In this document: one piece after another, positions 9,262 through 20,918 of the stretch
Position numbering within the stretch: the first letter of the stretch is position 1
Layout of the letters: each line of letters starts with the position of its first letter
NCBI GenBank assembly: GCA_900314905.1
Contig: OMXA01000024.1
Location: 1 to 36,084 of the forward strand
Direction: 5' to 3'
Source: an uncultured Erysipelotrichaceae bacterium
Lineage (GTDB): Bacteria; Bacillota_I; Bacilli_A; Erysipelotrichales; Erysipelotrichaceae
DNA: 36,084 nucleotides
Translations under genes and position numbers: made by a program
The notes under the pieces: model-generated
Databases searched by the model: none
What the model was told of the DNA's origin: nothing
The model's input: the letters and a program-made list of their open reading frames with translations, nothing else

Positions 9262-11739
9262 TCACTTTTCCAGGAACATCTGCTTCACTGACATCACTTC
9301 TGCTTCAAGCTGCCGGGCACTCATGCGCATTGCCCCCATCGCAAAGATGCTGTTCTGAATCAGGCCGTCAGACGAGGCAACGAGATAGTCATATTCTTCT
9401 GCGTGTTCATAGACTTCCCGCTCAATCCAGGCATCGGCGGTTTCATCCGCTCTGGTATAGACGATCGTCATCGTCCCTTTTTCGTAAGAAGAGCCGATGC
9501 TGTCCTTCTGCCGGTATCCGTCAAACACGAGAATCATCTTCATGCCGGCATATCCCTGCCAGCTGAAAAGTTCATCAATCAGCTTCTCGCGGGCAATCAT
9601 CAGATTCTCATGAGCAAGCTCCTTCAGGCTGTCCCATCCGAACAGCATATTGTAGCCATCGATGAGGATGCACTTTTCCTTTGAGACTGACGGCTTCGGT
9701 TTCCTGACCTTCTCCTCGACCCGCTGCGGCCGGTTCTTTTCCGGCTTCCGGTTGCGGCCGGACTCATTCTGCATGATCAGATTCAGTTCCTCATCGCTGA
9801 TCCGCATCGTCTCATGACGCATGCCTTCTGATTCGGACTTCTGCTTCAGCTGCAGGTGCATCTTAGCATCCGCTTCTCTCCAGGGCACATAAACCCCTGA
9901 ACCATGCACGCAGAAGATCGAACCGGCAGGATGGTCCGGATCATGTTCTGCATCATAGCCTGATTCCTGAATGATGGCCGTCTGATCCGGACTTTCCTCA
10001 TAGCCTGAGGATTCATAGGAGAACCTTCCTGATCCATGGGTATAGGAGCGGACCTCTTCTTCATAATTTCGAAGAAGTCTAAGAGGACCTTTCCCGGAAA
10101 CCTGACTGATTCCAGCCTTCAGCGATTCGGTCTTCGCATCGGCATGGCGCTGTTCGAGATCGAAGAGAGCTCTGGAAAGAGCAGCATCCGGGATTCTCAG
10201 GACAAAGGAAACATAGGGTTCCAGCACCAGATTATCTGCCTTCATCAGGGCCTGACGTACTGCCCTGAGGGCAGCTTCCCGGAAATCACCGCCTTCCGTA
10301 TGCTTCACGCTGCCTTTTGCGGCAATAAGAGAAATCTTCACATCCGTTAACGAGGAACAGGTCAGCACCCCTCTCAGATCTGAGGAAGCAAGTGCAGAAA
10401 GAATGGCATTCTGAAACACAGATGAAACTTCATCCGTGCTCATCAGACTTTCCAGGATAATTCCGCTGCCCCGTTTCAATGGAGAAAGGTGCAGATGTAC
10501 TTCTGCATAATGGCGAAGCGGTTCAAAATGTCCTGCTCCATCCGTCTCAGAGCGGATCGTTTCAAGATAGCGGATCTTTCCTTCTCCGAAAGAAACGGGA
10601 ATCCCGCTTCGCTCTGCGATCAGATGCGCCAGCACCTCCTGCTGGAGCCTGCCGCTGACCGGTACCCGGATCGTATCTCCTTCCATCGCAAACTGCAGTT
10701 CCGGATAATCCTTCTGCAGGGATCGGCATACGGAAAACAGCTGATTCAGATCCGTTCCGGAAGGAACTTCCAGCGCATAGGAAATCGAGGACTTCATCGT
10801 TTCCTTCCTCTGATCCGGTTCAAATCCATAGCCGGTTCCTGCTTCCGCAGATTCCGGCCCCATGACGGTCACGATCATGCCGGCGGAAGCCTCCTTCACC
10901 TGCACGGCTTCCTGCCCATTCATAATCCGGATCTGATCTGCTTTCTCTTCCTTGCTCAGGCGGTCTCTGACCTTCAGATTCCCGCCGGTAATCTTCATAT
11001 GAACAAGACGGTGCCCGTCTTTATCTCTGGAAATCCGGTAGACTCTGGCTCCGAACGAGTCCGGATAGACCGGTGCACGAAGATAGAGATCAATCTGATC
11101 GAGAAGATCGGCGATGCCTTCCTGCTTCAGCGCACTGCCGAACACGACTGGAGAAACAGAACCTCCAGATACCGCATTGCAGATCATCTCATCCGTGATT
11201 TCTCCGCCTGCACTGTATGTCTCCAGCATCTCATCGCTGCAGGTAGCCAGCAGCTCTGAAGCATCTTCAGAAGCAAGGTCGACCGCCCCAGGCAGATCTT
11301 TCTGCAGATCCGAAAGCAGCTTCTGTTTTTCAGGATGCGGAAGATCCATCTTGTTGAAGAAGACCAGAACCGGAATATGAGATTCCTTCAGGGCATGGAG
11401 AATGGTCTCCGTATGGGGCTGAATGCCTTCCGGTGCAGAGATCACGACAACCGCGGCGTCAAGAACTGCAAGTGCCCGTTCCATCTCAGCAGAGAAATCG
11501 ACATGGCCAGGCGTATCGATGACATAGCAGTCGGTATTCTTCCAGACAAAATGTGCCTCCTTATCATATATCGTGATGCCATGATTCCGTTCCAGCACAT
11601 CGTAATCCAGAAACGAGTCCTGATGATCGACTCTGCCTTTTCTCCGGATGGTTCCGGACTCATAGAGCATCGCTTCAATGCATGTAGTCTTGCCCGCATC
11701 GACATGGGCAAGAATTCCGATCGTAATTCTTCCTGACAT
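9262..11739 (-). CDS. TetM/EF-G-like translation GTPase fused to a C-terminal NYN (YacP-like) nuclease domain
   Basis: A large fusion (825 aa). The N-terminal 620 or so residues resemble ribosomal-protection GTPases (TetM/TetO, EF-G-like): G1 AHVDAGKT (11-18), NHGITI (52-57, TetM has QRGITI), DTPGH (75-79), NKMD (129-132), then EF-G-like domains. A basic linker (about 655-690) leads to a NYN/YacP domain (690-825) with the acidic residues of LIDGYN, LVFDGYR, ADETADAW and ASSDG. YacP-like proteins (Rae1) cut mRNA at the ribosome, so one protein may both engage a ribosome and cleave RNA; that is inference. The ATG at 11739 fixes the G1 distance. It lies just after a terminator; TAAAAT ends seven bases before the ATG and no well-spaced ribosome site exists, so the message may be leaderless. 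Tetracycline resistance should not be assumed. Confidence 0.87.
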   Translation of the reverse strand: MSGRITIGILAHVDAGKTTCIEAMLYESGTIRRKGRVDHQDSFLDYDVLERNHGITIYDKEAHFVWKNTDCYVIDTPGHVDFSAEMERALAVLDAAVVVISAPEGIQPHTETILHALKESHIPVLVFFNKMDLPHPEKQKLLSDLQKDLPGAVDLASEDASELLATCSDEMLETYSAGGEITDEMICNAVSGGSVSPVVFGSALKQEGIADLLDQIDLYLRAPVYPDSFGARVYRISRDKDGHRLVHMKITGGNLKVRDRLSKEEKADQIRIMNGQEAVQVKEASAGMIVTVMGPESAEAGTGYGFEPDQRKETMKSSISYALEVPSGTDLNQLFSVCRSLQKDYPELQFAMEGDTIRVPVSGRLQQEVLAHLIAERSGIPVSFGEGKIRYLETIRSETDGAGHFEPLRHYAEVHLHLSPLKRGSGIILESLMSTDEVSSVFQNAILSALASSDLRGVLTCSSLTDVKISLIAAKGSVKHTEGGDFREAALRAVRQALMKADNLVLEPYVSFVLRIPDAALSRALFDLEQRHADAKTESLKAGISQVSGKGPLRLLRNYEEEVRSYTHGSGRFSYESSGYEESPDQTAIIQESGYDAEHDPDHPAGSIFCVHGSGVYVPWREADAKMHLQLKQKSESEGMRHETMRISDEELNLIMQNESGRNRKPEKNRPQRVEEKVRKPKPSVSKEKCILIDGYNMLFGWDSLKELAHENLMIAREKLIDELFSWQGYAGMKMILVFDGYRQKDSIGSSYEKGTMTIVYTRADETADAWIEREVYEHAEEYDYLVASSDGLIQNSIFAMGAMRMSARQLEAEVMSVKQMFLEK

Positions 11740-11751
11740 AGCCTCTATTTT

Positions 11752-11785
11752 AAAAGAAAACCTCTGCAGATGCATGCCGCAGAGG
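11752..11785 (-). terminator. Rho-independent terminator after the MetE-like gene
   Basis: On minus, CCTCTGC (11785-11779) pairs with GCAGAGG (11767-11761) around an 11-base loop and is followed by TTTTCTTTT. It sits eight bases after the methyltransferase stop and only 12 bases before the start of the GTPase-NYN gene, so it separates the two unless read through. Confidence 0.85.
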
Positions 11786-11793
11786 TCCATGAT

Positions 11794-14290: not shown

Positions 14291-15106
14291 ATGAAGGTCC
14301 ATGACTTTGCCCTTCTGACTGGCATCAATGCAGAAACCATCCGTTCCTACCGGCTGAAAGGTCTGATTCATCCAGCCCGGGAGAAGAACGGATATTATGA
14401 CTATACGATCGCAGACTTCGTCGAGCTTGCCTATGTCCGGAAGATGCGGGAATTCCAGGTTCCGCTTCAGAATATTCAGCAGATCTATGAGGGATCCGGG
14501 AATGCACAGCTGATCGGAATCCTGGAAGAAGAAATCTCTGAGCTGAACCAGCAGATCGCGCAGCTGAAGAAACAGGTACGGTTCCTGGAACTGGAATGCC
14601 AGCATGTCTCGGAATCAGACTACCCTTCCAGCCAGGTTCAGGTCATGGAATCCACGGATGAGAAGATCGATTACTATGATCTGAAAGATATCCCGAAAGA
14701 ACTGCTGGACTCTGCAGGCAGGTACTATCTGACCCAGACTCCCGTCATCCGCATTCCGAAAGAGGTTCTGAACGGCCCGATCGAGGATCGCCGGATCCGG
14801 ATCCAGACTGGACTCGGCACGTATCTCTTCATGCTGGAAGAGCGTGGAATCCCGGTCAATGAACATGCGGTGATCATCCCGCATGGGAAATGTCTTTCGA
14901 TGATGGTCCTCATCAGCAACCTGGAAGAGATGGATCTTCTGCAGATCGCTCCGATGATGCAGTATGCAGAAGACCGCCATCTGAAATTTCTGTCAGACAC
15001 GACGGGATATCTTGCCAGAGTAGAACGAAGAGACGGAAAGATGCTGTACCATTTCCGGATCCGGGCATGCATTGAAATTCACGAGCGCACAAGAAAAGCA
15101 GGCTAG
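14291..15106 (+). CDS. MerR-family transcriptional regulator with a large C-terminal domain
   Basis: The protein (271 aa) opens with a MerR-type winged helix (residues 1-70): FALLTGINAETIRSYRLKGL, then YYDYTIADFVELAYVRKMREFQ split as usual by the wing. Residue 20 is Arg-Leu where most members have Tyr-x-x-Gly-Leu. A coiled-coil dimerisation helix covers about 73-103 (EEEISELNQQIAQLKKQ). The remaining 165 or so residues probably form an effector-binding domain of the GyrI-like or BmrR type, but I cannot assign a ligand. No metal-binding cysteine pattern is present, which argues against a metal sensor despite the adjacent cutC. It ends inside the loop of a terminator hairpin. Confidence 0.87.
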   Translation: MKVHDFALLTGINAETIRSYRLKGLIHPAREKNGYYDYTIADFVELAYVRKMREFQVPLQNIQQIYEGSGNAQLIGILEEEISELNQQIAQLKKQVRFLELECQHVSESDYPSSQVQVMESTDEKIDYYDLKDIPKELLDSAGRYYLTQTPVIRIPKEVLNGPIEDRRIRIQTGLGTYLFMLEERGIPVNEHAVIIPHGKCLSMMVLISNLEEMDLLQIAPMMQYAEDRHLKFLSDTTGYLARVERRDGKMLYHFRIRACIEIHERTRKAG

Positions 15107-15139: not shown

Positions 15140-17698
15140 TTACTGGTTGTCTTCGTCAATTGCGTTTGCCGCAGTTCTTCCGGAAACAAGCACTTCGACA
15201 ATCGCATTGCCGCCAAGACGGTTGCCGGCATGAATGCCGCCAGTCACTTCGCCTGCTGCGTAGAGACCAGGAATGACAGAACCATCCGCGTTCAGAACAT
15301 GGCGCTTTGTATCAACGACCAGACCGCCCATCGTATGGTGGGTAGACGGTGCCATGACGCGGATTCTCAGAAGCTCGCCTTCCAGCTTGTATTCGCCGCT
15401 GTCATCAACGGTTCCGATCGTAGCGTTCCAGGCGCTCTTCTTGATGCCGTCGGAAGGAACTTCATCATTCAGATATGCTTCATCATACTGACGGATCGTA
15501 TCATAGATTTCTTCCGGAGAAGCTGTCATGCCATACTGATCCAGGACTTTCTGAATGTCTTCCGCACTGGAGACATAGTAGACCCGGTTCTCAACATCGT
15601 CATGAGAGATCTCGACAACCTGTCCCTTCTCATACTTGTCATACGGATACGGAATGCCGATTGCCGTATTGGCATTCGTGATTTCGAGGAACACGCCCTT
15701 GGTCCCATTGTATTCGACTCCGTTTGCGAATTCACCAAGTGAAAGGACATCACGTTCTGCTGATTCATCAACGAACCGCTTGCCGGTGGTCGGATTGATG
15801 TAAACCGCATACTGGCCGCCGCCGAATGCCAGGTTGCCATTGTCAACCCAGGAGATCGGCATCATCTGCGGGAAACCCATACCGGTGAGAGCAGCTCCTG
15901 CCTCTTCGCCCATCTTGATGCCATCGCCCTGCAGAGAGGAACGGTTGGTCGTCTTGATGCCGGTGGTCAGATAATCCGGATCCCAGTATTCATTATCATC
16001 GACAACCATCTGGATATTCGCAGCATAGCCGCCGGTTGCCATCACGACGCCTTTCTTTGCATGCAGCGTGACCGGAGTTCCGTCATACTGCGTGCCGGTC
16101 ACACCGGTCACCTTGCCGTCTTCGAGGATCAGATTTTCTGCCTTGGTTCTGGTCATGATCGCATTGCCATCGGCATTCATGACAGTTGTGCTTAATGGCA
16201 GGAAGTAGGTGCCCCAGTTGCCAGTCGCATCTGTGACGCCGTCTTTATCAATATCGCAGCCCATGTTCTGGTTCTCACGATACCAGAGCGCTCCGATCAG
16301 CGTCAGCTGCTTGTCATCTGCAAACAGGGATCCCTGGTCTTCGAGCCATTCCTTCAGGCCCTGGCCGTCATTGATGAACTGAGATACCAGATCATAATTG
16401 CCATAGATCCATTCAGATCCGTCGGCAGATCTTCTTAATCCGCCGTAATACGTCTGGAAGATATGGAGATTGACCGTGGAGAACAGGGTCAGATCGGACT
16501 CCGATGCACCGGAAGCAAGCTTCGGTTCTGCATAGTCGAGATATGCCTGAATCTCTTTCTTCAGAGCCTGCAGCGTTCCGAGGTATTCCTGATGGACTCC
16601 CGCCTGAGACAGGGTATCGATTTCGCCTGCCACGTAGTCATGGGTATCAAAGTAAGAAGGATCAAACGGTTTCTCAGACCAGTTCAGAATCGTCTTCAGA
16701 ACACTCAGCTGCCCCTGGGTAGCCTTGAGCTTCGTATACGTCTTTCCGTTGTAATCCCAGGTTCCTTCGGTCGCTTCCGGATCAGCAGGATCCCAGACGA
16801 GATACGGCATCACCGACTGGAACTGTCCGCCGGAGACGAGGGTGTTTCCGCCGATTTCTGCATTCTCTTCGACCACAACGACCGAATCCCCATTCTGGAC
16901 TGCCTGCGCTGCCGCAGCCAGGCCGGCGCCGCCGCCGCCGATGACGACAACATCATAGGTTTCCTCAATCGGATCGCCAGCCGTATGTTTCACGGTCTTC
17001 TTCTGGAACACAGAGAGATCGGATACGCCAGCCTGTTCTGCCGCATCATCCAGAGCTGCCTTGATGGCTCTGGAGGTGAAGGTCGCACCGGAAACGGAAT
17101 CAATTCCGGATCCGCCTGCTTCCTTGGCATCCGCAAACATAATGTCATACGCCACATCGCCGACATGAGCGGTTTCGCTGGATGTCTTGACCTGAATGTC
17201 ATCAATGCCGCTGTCAGAGAACGTGACATCAAGCTCCACAGGGCCATTGTAACCTTCCGAGCTGCCCGTATAAGTTCCTGCCTTGAAGCTCAGAGCAGCA
17301 TCCGCATCCGCGGCTGCTGTCCCTTCTTCGGTCGCATCAATCGCAGCCTGAACTGCTCCCCTTACGCCGTTGGAAGTCATCGTCGCACCGGATACGCCAT
17401 CGATGTCGGCACTGCCTGCATCCAGAACCTGCTGCTTCAGTTTTTCCAGCGCAGCTCCTCCGACCGTCGGTGTCTCACTGTCGCCTGTGAGCACGACATC
17501 CGTGATCTTGCCATTGTCAAATGTGACATCTGCAGCCACTACCCCGCCGAAGCCCTGTGCTTCGCCATGGTAGGTTCCGGTCTTGCCGGAAGCTGCTGAA
17601 GATGATGTTCCCTGTCCGCATCCGCCGAGGCTTCCGAGGACAGCTGCGACTGCGAAAAGTCCGCAGACAGCAGAAGTTGTAACCTTGTTTCCCTTCAT
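15140..17698 (-). CDS. Surface lipoprotein flavin reductase (flavocytochrome c/fumarate reductase type) with two FMN-binding domains
   Basis: A lipoprotein (852 aa): signal peptide and lipobox LGGC (Cys27), then two tandem FMN-binding domains with flavinylation motifs SGATMTS (103-109) and SGATFTS (203-209), whose second Thr is the expected covalent FMN site (ApbE-type), then an FAD-binding reductase domain starting at GGGGAG (254-259). Related enzymes use extracellular acceptors such as fumarate, urocanate or other enoates as electron sinks. Substrate-clamp residues are conserved: Arg649 (SAERD), His788 (HHTMGG), Arg827 (GNRLGG). By my alignment from memory the histidine of fumarate reductases (QAHP in Shewanella Fcc3) is Met613 here (QMMP), so the acceptor may not be fumarate. 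GGGAGG precedes the ATG at 17698. No apbE, cytochrome or membrane electron donor is in the window. Confidence 0.9.
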   Translation of the reverse strand: MKGNKVTTSAVCGLFAVAAVLGSLGGCGQGTSSSAASGKTGTYHGEAQGFGGVVAADVTFDNGKITDVVLTGDSETPTVGGAALEKLKQQVLDAGSADIDGVSGATMTSNGVRGAVQAAIDATEEGTAAADADAALSFKAGTYTGSSEGYNGPVELDVTFSDSGIDDIQVKTSSETAHVGDVAYDIMFADAKEAGGSGIDSVSGATFTSRAIKAALDDAAEQAGVSDLSVFQKKTVKHTAGDPIEETYDVVVIGGGGAGLAAAAQAVQNGDSVVVVEENAEIGGNTLVSGGQFQSVMPYLVWDPADPEATEGTWDYNGKTYTKLKATQGQLSVLKTILNWSEKPFDPSYFDTHDYVAGEIDTLSQAGVHQEYLGTLQALKKEIQAYLDYAEPKLASGASESDLTLFSTVNLHIFQTYYGGLRRSADGSEWIYGNYDLVSQFINDGQGLKEWLEDQGSLFADDKQLTLIGALWYRENQNMGCDIDKDGVTDATGNWGTYFLPLSTTVMNADGNAIMTRTKAENLILEDGKVTGVTGTQYDGTPVTLHAKKGVVMATGGYAANIQMVVDDNEYWDPDYLTTGIKTTNRSSLQGDGIKMGEEAGAALTGMGFPQMMPISWVDNGNLAFGGGQYAVYINPTTGKRFVDESAERDVLSLGEFANGVEYNGTKGVFLEITNANTAIGIPYPYDKYEKGQVVEISHDDVENRVYYVSSAEDIQKVLDQYGMTASPEEIYDTIRQYDEAYLNDEVPSDGIKKSAWNATIGTVDDSGEYKLEGELLRIRVMAPSTHHTMGGLVVDTKRHVLNADGSVIPGLYAAGEVTGGIHAGNRLGGNAIVEVLVSGRTAANAIDEDNQ

Positions 17699-17712
17699 TT
17701 TTTCCTCCCACC

Positions 17713-17778
17713 GATTTGTACACGATTTCACAAATCAGGGCATTCGTATGTTAAACCCTGTATTGAATACAGAGTCAA
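17713..17778 (-). promoter_or_regulatory. Reductase promoter with spacer palindrome and Rex-like operator
   Basis: On minus, -35 TTGACT (17778-17773) and -10 TTTAAC (17755-17750) are 17 bases apart. The spacer holds the perfect palindrome CTGTATTCAATACAG (17772-17758). Downstream of the start point lies GATTTGT/ACAAATC, 7-base repeats at 17736-17730 and 17719-17713. Inside it, TTGTGAAATCGTGTACAA (17733-17716) matches the Rex consensus TTGTGAAnnnnTTCACAA at 12 of 14 fixed positions. Rex senses NADH/NAD+ and represses fermentative and anaerobic genes in Bacillota, which suits this gene. The spacer palindrome would need another regulator. Confidence 0.65.
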
Positions 17779-17814
17779 CGGGAAATCAGGAAAATTCGTG
17801 AAATCATGAACAGA

Positions 17815-17846
17815 ATAAAAAAAGCGTTCCCGTTCTTCAGGAACGC
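17815..17846 (-). terminator. Rho-independent terminator after purB
   Basis: On minus, GCGTTCC (17846-17840) pairs with GGAACGC (17830-17824) and is followed by TTTTTTTATT. It lies 18 bases after the purB stop and isolates purB from the reductase promoter. Confidence 0.88.
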
Positions 17847-17863
17847 CAGGCTGCTGAGTCTGA

Positions 17864-19159
17864 TCAGAGAATCCCGACCCGTCTGTAGATCGTATCCACG
17901 TTCTTCGTGTGATACATCGGGTCAAAGCAGTCATCCATTTCTTCTTTGGAAAGAGAAGCCTGCACTTCCGGCACAGCTTCGATCAGATCGCGGAAATTCT
18001 TTCCTTCTTCCCATGCTTTAGCCGCCAGCGGCTGCACGAGGTCATATGCCTTTTCTCTCGGCCAGCCCTTCTCAATCAGCTTCAGCATGAATCTCTGCGA
18101 GAAGATGATGCCATGCGTCAGCCAGATATCCTGCTTCATCTTTTCCGGGAACACCGTCAGATTCTTCAGGATTCCGCCGAAGCGCACCAGCATGTAATCC
18201 AGCAGTTCCGTCGCATCCGGAGCGATGATCCGCTCCGCAGAAGAATGCGAGATATCGCGTTCGTGCCAGAGTGCAATGTCTTCATAGCTCGTTATCATAT
18301 AGCCCCTCAGAACTCGCGAACATCCGCAGATATTCTCAGAGCCGATCGGATTATGCTTATGCGGCATCGCGCTGCTGCCCTTCTGGCCTTTGCTGAAATG
18401 TTCCTCGACTTCATGAATCTCCGTGCGCTGAAGACCGCGGATCTCCGTAGCCATCTGCTCCAGCGTGGAGCCGATCAGGGCCAGGGTGGCAAAATAATGC
18501 GCATGACGGTCGCGCTGCAGAACCTGGGTGGAAATATTCGCCGAATGGATGCCAAGCTGCTCACAGACATAATCCTGCACAAACGGAGGAATATTGGCAA
18601 ACGTTCCGACCGCACCGCTGATCTTGCCTGCTTCGACATCTGCGGCAGCCGCATCAAACCGTTCGAGGTTCCGCTTCATCTCTTCATACCAGAGCGCAAA
18701 CTTCAGTCCGAAGGTCGTGATCTCCGCATGGACGCCATGGGTTCTTCCCATCATGACGGTATCCTTGTACTTCAGGGCATTGGCTTTCAGGATTTCCATG
18801 AAATCGAGAATATCCTGGCGCAGAATGGCGTCTGCTTTCTGAAAGCGGATGCCATTTGCCGTATCGACGACATCAGTGCTCGTCACGCCATAATGCACCC
18901 ACTTCTTTTCCTCACCGAGACTCTCGGAAACACAGCGCGTGAACGCGACGACATCATGTTTTGTCTCTGCTTCAATCTCATGAATCCGGCTTACCTCGAA
19001 CTTTGCGTTTCTGCGGATCGCTTCCACATCCTCAGGCGGAATCTCTCCGAGCTTGCTCCAGGCTTCATCAATCAGGATCTCGACCTCCAGCCATGCCTGA
19101 TACATTGCCTGTTCGCTCCAGACATCACGCATCACTTTCCTAGAATACCGTTCAATCAT
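17864..19159 (-). CDS. purB: Adenylosuccinate lyase
   Basis: PurB (431 aa, normal length for Bacillota) splits adenylosuccinate to AMP and fumarate, and SAICAR to AICAR and fumarate. Motifs of the fumarase/aspartase superfamily: [13 protein letters not shown] (catalytic region near 85-100), GRTHGVHAE with the catalytic His near 140, and the flexible signature loop [16 protein letters not shown] with its catalytic Ser. The ATG at 19159 has AGGAG at eight bases; a longer frame upstream lacks support. It has its own promoter (19185-19214) and terminator. The fumarate it releases is a conceivable acceptor for the downstream reductase, but they are separate units. Confidence 0.97.
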
Positions 19160-20234: not shown

Positions 20235-20918
20235 ATGCGCAAATACCTTGAAACGATCAAGAAAGCCCGGATCTTCCGCGGAATTCCGGACAATGAATTT
20301 GAAACCATGCTGGAAACCCTTGATATCCAGCTGAAGCATTATTCCGAAGCACAGATCATCGTCCGCGAAGGACAGCGGATTCATCGCGCTGCCGTCCTTC
20401 TGGAAGGAAAAGCAGTGCTCTATCAGGATGACTTCTGGGGCAGACACCAGGAACTCACCGTGATCGAACCAGGCGATCTGTTTGCGGAAAACTATGCCTG
20501 TGCCCGCAACCTGCCTGCTGACTGCAGTGCTTCGGCGAAAGAGCCATCGGTGGTGCTCTGGTTCAGCATCCAGGACCTCATTTCAGACCAGAACGGCAGC
20601 CCGTTCCGGGAGCTGATCCTGAAGAACATGCTCAGCGAGCTGGCCAGACGGAATATGAACCTTTATGCGACGATCCGCCATGTAAGGCCTCAGAAGACCA
20701 GAGAAAAGCTTCTTTCCTATTTATCAGAAGAAGCATTGCGTGCTCATTGCGCGGAATTCGATATTCCCTATGACCGCAGACAGCTGGCCGAGTATCTTGG
20801 CGTCGAGCGCTCGGCGATGTCTTCCACCCTGTCTTCCCTTGCAAAAGAAGGCTGGCTGAAGACAGAAAAGAATCATTTCATCCTGCTGAAAAGACCAATG
20901 GATCATCTGCCGGAATGA
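20235..20918 (+). CDS. Crp/Fnr-family transcriptional regulator
   Basis: The protein (227 aa) has an N-terminal cyclic-nucleotide-binding-type beta-barrel (about 10-120; IIVREGQRIHRAAVLLEGKA then IEPGDLFAEN) and a C-terminal Crp-type winged helix (about 150-220) with REKLLSYLSEEA, then DRRQLAEYLGVERSAMSSTLSSLAKEGWL as turn and recognition helices. The FNR N-terminal cysteine cluster is absent and the cAMP-contact Arg-Ser pair of CRP is not evident, so the ligand is unknown. Many relatives in anaerobic Bacillota respond to redox or nitrosative signals; that is family knowledge only. The start has a poor ribosome site (AGGA at 12 bases). Its targets cannot be told from the sequence. Confidence 0.92.
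   Translation: MRKYLETIKKARIFRGIPDNEFETMLETLDIQLKHYSEAQIIVREGQRIHRAAVLLEGKAVLYQDDFWGRHQELTVIEPGDLFAENYACARNLPADCSASAKEPSVVLWFSIQDLISDQNGSPFRELILKNMLSELARRNMNLYATIRHVRPQKTREKLLSYLSEEALRAHCAEFDIPYDRRQLAEYLGVERSAMSSTLSSLAKEGWLKTEKNHFILLKRPMDHLPE

Follow-up and report, generated by a model that had tools for sequence, protein, structure and literature searches.

The dyad in the 5′ leader of a gene for a secreted-type flavin reductase is probably a Rex operator of modest affinity (17716-17733); we infer binding by Rex, repression, the response to NADH and the gate proposed below from sequence data. Gut anaerobes use FMN/FAD reductases as respiratory outlets. If true, placing the reductase family under Rex together with a MerR-type activator would tie acceptor use to the NADH/NAD+ balance. 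Features of the window, meaning the whole 36,084-nucleotide stretch of DNA analyzed, are collected in Table 1.

Table 1. Features at and near the reductase promoter, with strand and basis of assignment.
Feature	Position	Strand	Basis
MerR-family regulator gene	14291..15106	+	ORF/domain annotation; convergent with reductase
Secreted-type flavin reductase, 852 aa; two FMN_bind stretches and FAD_binding_2	15140..17698	-	Domain searches
Predicted 5′ mRNA hairpin, main stem 17738-17729/17720-17711	17708..17740	-	Fold prediction, arm co-variation in relatives
Rex-like operator candidate TTGTGAAATCGTGTACAA (12/14), in 5′ leader	17716..17733	-	Pattern match, inverted-repeat list, matrix rank 1
MerR-type promoter: TTGACT, 19-bp spacer, TAACAT	17748..17778	-	Read by eye; dyad in inverted-repeat list
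Second, weaker Rex-like site TCGTGAAATCATGAACAG (10/14)	17796..17813	+	Inverted-repeat list, matrix rank 2 or 3
Terminator-like hairpin after upstream adenylosuccinate lyase gene; promoter region boundary	17823..17847	-	Terminator scan, annotation
Crp/Fnr-type regulator, cNMP-binding and HTH_Crp_2 domains, near reductase	20235-20918	+	Domain search

The minus strand was read from 17733 to 17716 against the Rex pattern TTGTGAAnnnnTTCACAA. TTGTGAAATCGTGTACAA agreed at 12 of the 14 fixed positions with the correct spacing, as the first-pass annotation had stated, and this 18-mer was enclosed by the longer perfect 7-base inverted repeat that it had described (GATTTGT/ACAAATC, 17713-17719/17730-17736). 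Its placement of the site just past the predicted transcription start was also borne out: the promoter was found where implied (−35 element TTGACT at 17778-17773, −10 element TAACAT at 17753-17748, spacer 19 bp, predicted start ∼17741 on the minus strand), with the site spanning ∼+9 to +26 as read by eye from that predicted start. The second site is an inverted near-copy of the leader site, 80 bp away and upstream of the −35 element, and the pair flanks the promoter.

The Rex operator of S. aureus is TTGTGAAW4TTCACAA, an 18-bp dyad in or beside promoters, an arrangement shared by the leader site; in S. aureus, binding suffers most from substitutions at positions 4 and 5 and is strongest with an A/T-rich spacer (PMC2883068). 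Unlike that operator, the leader site has two mismatches, both in one half (the right one, positions 5 and 6), and the spacer ATCG, which is not A/T-only; positions 4 and 5 are conserved in its left half. By the S. aureus rules on positions 4 and 5 and on the spacer (PMC2883068), the right half is therefore poor. Surveys of Rex sites in S. aureus and Listeria allowed up to 3 mismatches (PMC2883068, PMC8389512).

In the window, the leader site was the only place with up to 2 mismatches to the Rex pattern; at up to 3 mismatches, 3 places were found against 1.63 expected, a number equalled in 26 of 100 shuffles. The whole genome held 7 places at up to 2 mismatches and 76 at up to 3; the backwards pattern gave 2 and 41. 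On letters alone, chance should therefore supply about two such places in each genome, and a chance palindrome in an A+T-rich leader could give the site; the position at a promoter, the second copy flanking that promoter and the recurrence in orthologs described below make this very improbable.

Further copies of the site in the genome, as expected of Rex control, were found in part: 7 places stand against 2 for the backwards pattern, and 3 of the 7 lie within open frames and were attributed to chance. The remaining 4 precede genes, namely gap (∼65 nt), iPGM, a Fer4_20 protein/LysR pair and the reductase under study; a longer version of that frame would run into the Fer4_20/LysR site. A Rex-like site was also present before a fucO-type dehydrogenase in this genome. 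Genes were inspected at 15 loci, among the first 50 of the 76 places with up to 3 mismatches listed. Among the matches listed, a 3-mismatch site (L017, G000:C19:10241) separates a divergent gene from a second reductase with FMN_bind and FAD_binding_2 domains, and a further reductase of this domain make-up is preceded by a 1-mismatch site in species G035 (L077, G035:C67:28227). Both are ∼50-60 nt ahead of their reductases, hinting that the FMN/FAD reductase class may be under Rex.

A rex gene, on which the first-pass reading depended, was present in this genome (E 1.2e-17), above the NCBIfam Rex cut-off (NF003989, 201 bits against 177). Across the genus rex was found in 56 of 61 genomes; the five in which the search was negative were G028, G036, G061, G063 and G079, four of them at most 84% complete and G061 95%. 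At 24 of 30 rex loci (hand count), a TTCACAA half-site was one of the two top-scoring sites lying no more than 200 nt from the rex start, and the region upstream of the genome's own rex was without it. Of 21 regions upstream of fucO-type dehydrogenases, 6 matched at 12/14 or better and 12 at 11/14 or better; four of the regions (L228, L231-L233) had been chosen in the knowledge that they held a site. None of the other Fe-ADH rows scored above 10/14; the AdhE-type starts are internal, with the true upstream outside the scan. At up to 1 mismatch, the 61 genus genomes gave no excess (37 places against 34 in the backwards control, our own summing). By the half-site and fucO counts, the genus seems to use the Rex motif.

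A weight matrix was constructed from 27 sites of other genes (17 of the 30 rex rows and 10 fucO sites). The leader site ranked first in the window with this matrix, at 12.4 bits, and the near-copy at 17796-17813 third; with a matrix of the 10 fucO sites only, they ranked first and second. The training sites had been picked by consensus likeness, so the ranking is not blind, and the score of the leader site is lower than that of all 27 (13.8-22.8 bits). With this score, the two mismatches in one half and the spacer, the first-pass description of the site as near-consensus was overstated.

The reductase gene was present in 38 of 70 other genus genomes, and 80 loci of species genomes were kept for ortholog comparison. 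A start set of 97 upstream regions (17 genus loci including the window and the 80 species-genome loci) was reduced to 72 regions of 250 bases by dropping 25, comprising 11 duplicates, 1 near-duplicate, 9 with non-ATG starts (including L058, which has a non-Rex dyad) and 4 shorter than 250 bases; two loci lacking a usable start (L062, L063) and every locus from L248 onward lie outside this set. With the window left out, a match of 12/14 or better to the TTGTGAA or the clostridial TTGTTAA form was found in 11 of 71 orthologs and in 2 of 172 neighboring-gene upstreams (P 3e-5), the A+T-matched expectation being 1.4 and the backwards patterns giving 2 of 71. The other 60 ortholog upstreams were without a 12/14 site, and against the A+T-rich controls alone the two forms, taken separately, gave P values of 0.03 and 0.08. 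Sites were located in the leader in L051, L057 and L109 and upstream of the −35 element in L047, L053 and L131; L109 (Lachnospiraceae) carries the clostridial form TTGTTAAGGTAATAACAA at the equivalent leader position. Genus members read later and unused in forming the idea had 12/14 sites in 4 of 16 (L250, L256, L267, L268), all in the leader. This later set omits L248, L251, L254 and L266 (genomes of L091, L131, L134 and L061) and L253 (no start); L250 was scored by hand from the sequence and L252 was judged site-free by eye.

Sites were found at 7 of 28 loci with a rex match of E 1e-15 or better and at 0 of 20 with a weaker match or none, the line having been drawn after the E-values were seen and the comparison covering 50 of the 80 loci. 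A split at the family cut-off gave 7/38 and 0/10 and was not significant (P 0.17). Upstream A+T differed between the rex groups (0.644 against 0.584) and, since several weak-group loci are Treponema, descent is a confounder of the split. A point against Rex is that a leader dyad persists in several relatives whose letters there do not resemble the Rex site: in L058, L059, L061, L249, L258 and L265, dyads of unrelated letters (e.g., TTCTGTGTATACACAGAA, TTGTCCTATAGAAGGACAA) occupy the place of the Rex-like one. The weight of these varied dyads against Rex is lessened by the ortholog sites and their enrichment. The relatives in which the site was apparently acquired, relocated or lost would serve as natural controls.

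A Crp-type core (TGTGA-N6-TCACA) has the same spacing and fits the site nearly as well on letters, and a gene for a Crp-like protein lies ∼2.5 kb away. The core was matched at 8/10 or better in 31 of 85 ortholog upstreams and 6 of 86 A+T-rich controls and in S. aureus such motifs are bound by ArcR (PMC2883068). The additional Rex positions were tried as a discriminator and given up, the control sites being nearly as good: 90/152 in ortholog sites (38 sites chosen on the Crp core alone) against 19/40 in control sites (P 0.13), so that letters alone do not tell Rex from Crp. Set against a Crp/Fnr-family operator, perhaps for the regulator at 20235-20918, are the forms TTGTTAA (L109) and TTGTCAA (L250), which stand at the same place and are poor Crp sites, and the score of the window site, which is only 8/10. 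The enriched core is itself contained in the Rex motif. At the S. aureus fermentation genes tested, the shared motif acted through Rex (PMC2883068). The same motif is also borne by rex and fucO, which are expected Rex targets; together with the L109 and L250 forms this favors Rex over Crp, and we regard control by a Crp/Fnr-type protein as quite unlikely.

The cre consensus was taken to be TGWAANCGNTNWCA and the Fnr motif TTGATnnnnATCAA. With the former, TGAAATCGTGTACA agrees at 10 of 11 fixed positions, and two LacI-type genes are present in the genome. Neither of these reaches the CcpA cut-off (best 254 of 442 bits), the pattern is common (22 window places at up to 2 mismatches against 26 expected), and no clear enrichment was found in orthologs (26 of 85; A+T-rich controls, 28 of 86; all controls, 36 of 172, P 0.06). 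A cre site for a CcpA-like LacI regulator was rejected as highly improbable despite the good local match. The Fnr motif, found in 26 of 85 orthologs and 18 of 86 A+T-rich controls, was likewise rejected.

MerR-type promoters have a 19-bp spacer with an operator dyad between the −35 and −10 elements. The reductase promoter shares this layout, with the dyad ACCCTGTATT/AATACAGAGT (17755-17775) within the spacer and a linked MerR gene; it was not detected in a generic sigma-70 scan with spacers of 16-18 bp only. Unlike MerR-type promoters in general, it is flanked by Rex-like sites, and the MerR gene is convergent with the reductase here and divergent in relatives. The reductase is preceded by the same MerR-type motif in 30 other loci (22 distinct genomes by hand count), plus further ones; all 30 contain a match to the MerR protein of the window, divergent from the reductase by coordinates. 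In relatives, the arms of the spacer dyad had no pairing excess (own arms 17.3, swapped 18.4), so this dyad behaves as a DNA operator. The first-pass choice of Rex as regulator is upheld in part: the presence of rex, the first rank in the window and the ortholog enrichment support it, and the MerR-type promoter, the weaker upstream copy and the hairpin described next had been missed.

The leader was predicted to fold with −13.4 kcal/mol (z −2.58), matched by 3 of 200 shuffles. In the leaders of 18 relatives, own arms scored 14.3 and swapped arms 10.2, with 0 of 10,000 permutations as good; the pairing was present in six leaders without Rex-like letters (P 0.006) and in eight Rex-like leaders (P 0.03). 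A sliding control placed the leader arm excess as the largest of 52 windows, and the arm test is somewhat liberal, since three other windows gave P ≤ 0.002 (at −58 and, within the gene, at 170 and 176). In 15 long leaders the best dyad was centered 17 to 26 nt past the −10 element, 11 of them within 19.5-22.5, with differing letters. An Rfam search of 17600-17900 with E up to 1 gave no match. As the arms co-vary even where the letters are not those of Rex, there seems to be pressure on the leader dyad to keep its pairing that goes beyond any single operator, and the co-varying hairpin may explain the 7-base repeat no less well than Rex.

Alternatively, the dyad might matter only as a 5′ stem-loop of the mRNA, protecting against decay or setting translation, with the likeness to Rex incidental. 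The predicted hairpin begins at the predicted +1, own arms outpair swapped arms also in the non-Rex-lettered leaders with no such excess in the MerR dyad, and the variation in the loops between the best stems, from 4 to 12 nt, is unexplained by a rigid 18-bp operator. A stem-loop role on its own nevertheless appears rather unlikely: it leaves the Rex-like sites outside leaders and the clostridial form of L109 unexplained, only 7 of the 15 long leaders fold singly better than shuffles at P < 0.05, the hairpin is absent from four relatives with short leaders, and the arm test is somewhat liberal by the sliding control. More tentatively than the operator itself, we suggest that one dyad may have two jobs, as DNA a Rex operator closing a MerR-activated promoter until NADH rises and as RNA a 5′ hairpin. 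Selection on the RNA would then keep the paired arms even in lineages that have lost the Rex letters or shifted the Rex site to a place upstream of the −35 element, and the result would be a substrate-and-redox gate on the extracytosolic flavin reductases of gut anaerobes.

For the preferred reading of the leader site as a Rex operator, the following sequence of events is proposed. With NAD+ plentiful, a Rex dimer at ∼+9 to +26 would block the reductase promoter, perhaps assisted by the weaker site upstream of the −35 element. Upon accumulation of NADH, Rex would dissociate and the cell would produce the electron-accepting reductase. As the promoter is of the MerR type, full expression probably also requires the linked MerR protein with its ligand, which would give the substrate-and-redox gate; the same dyad probably folds in the mRNA as well.

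The site at the reductase promoter is probably a sensible new example of known Rex biology. A literature search on Rex with flavin or fumarate reductases found no report on this reductase family, which is no proof of absence. Listeria FrdA presumably resembles this reductase. As a published precedent for the proposed logic, frdA (lmo0355) of L. monocytogenes was 85-fold up in Δrex, and in the passage on that rise frdA is absent from the genes credited with a predicted Rex site (PMC8389512). There, a fumarate reductase flavoprotein gene is repressed via Rex as judged by expression, whereas the present case is known from sequence alone.

The start codon of the reductase is the ATG at 17698, and its N-terminus was judged lipoprotein-like by eye. 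The best NCBIfam match was flavocytochrome c, at 209 bits, below the cut-off of 285. Elsewhere in the window, 9262-11790 on the minus strand encodes an 842-aa ribosomal-protection/EF-G-like GTPase with a C-terminal YacP-like NYN domain, for which the best NCBIfam match was tet_protect (388 bits, under the cut-off of 775). To our knowledge, the fusion of such a GTPase to a YacP-like NYN domain is unusual.
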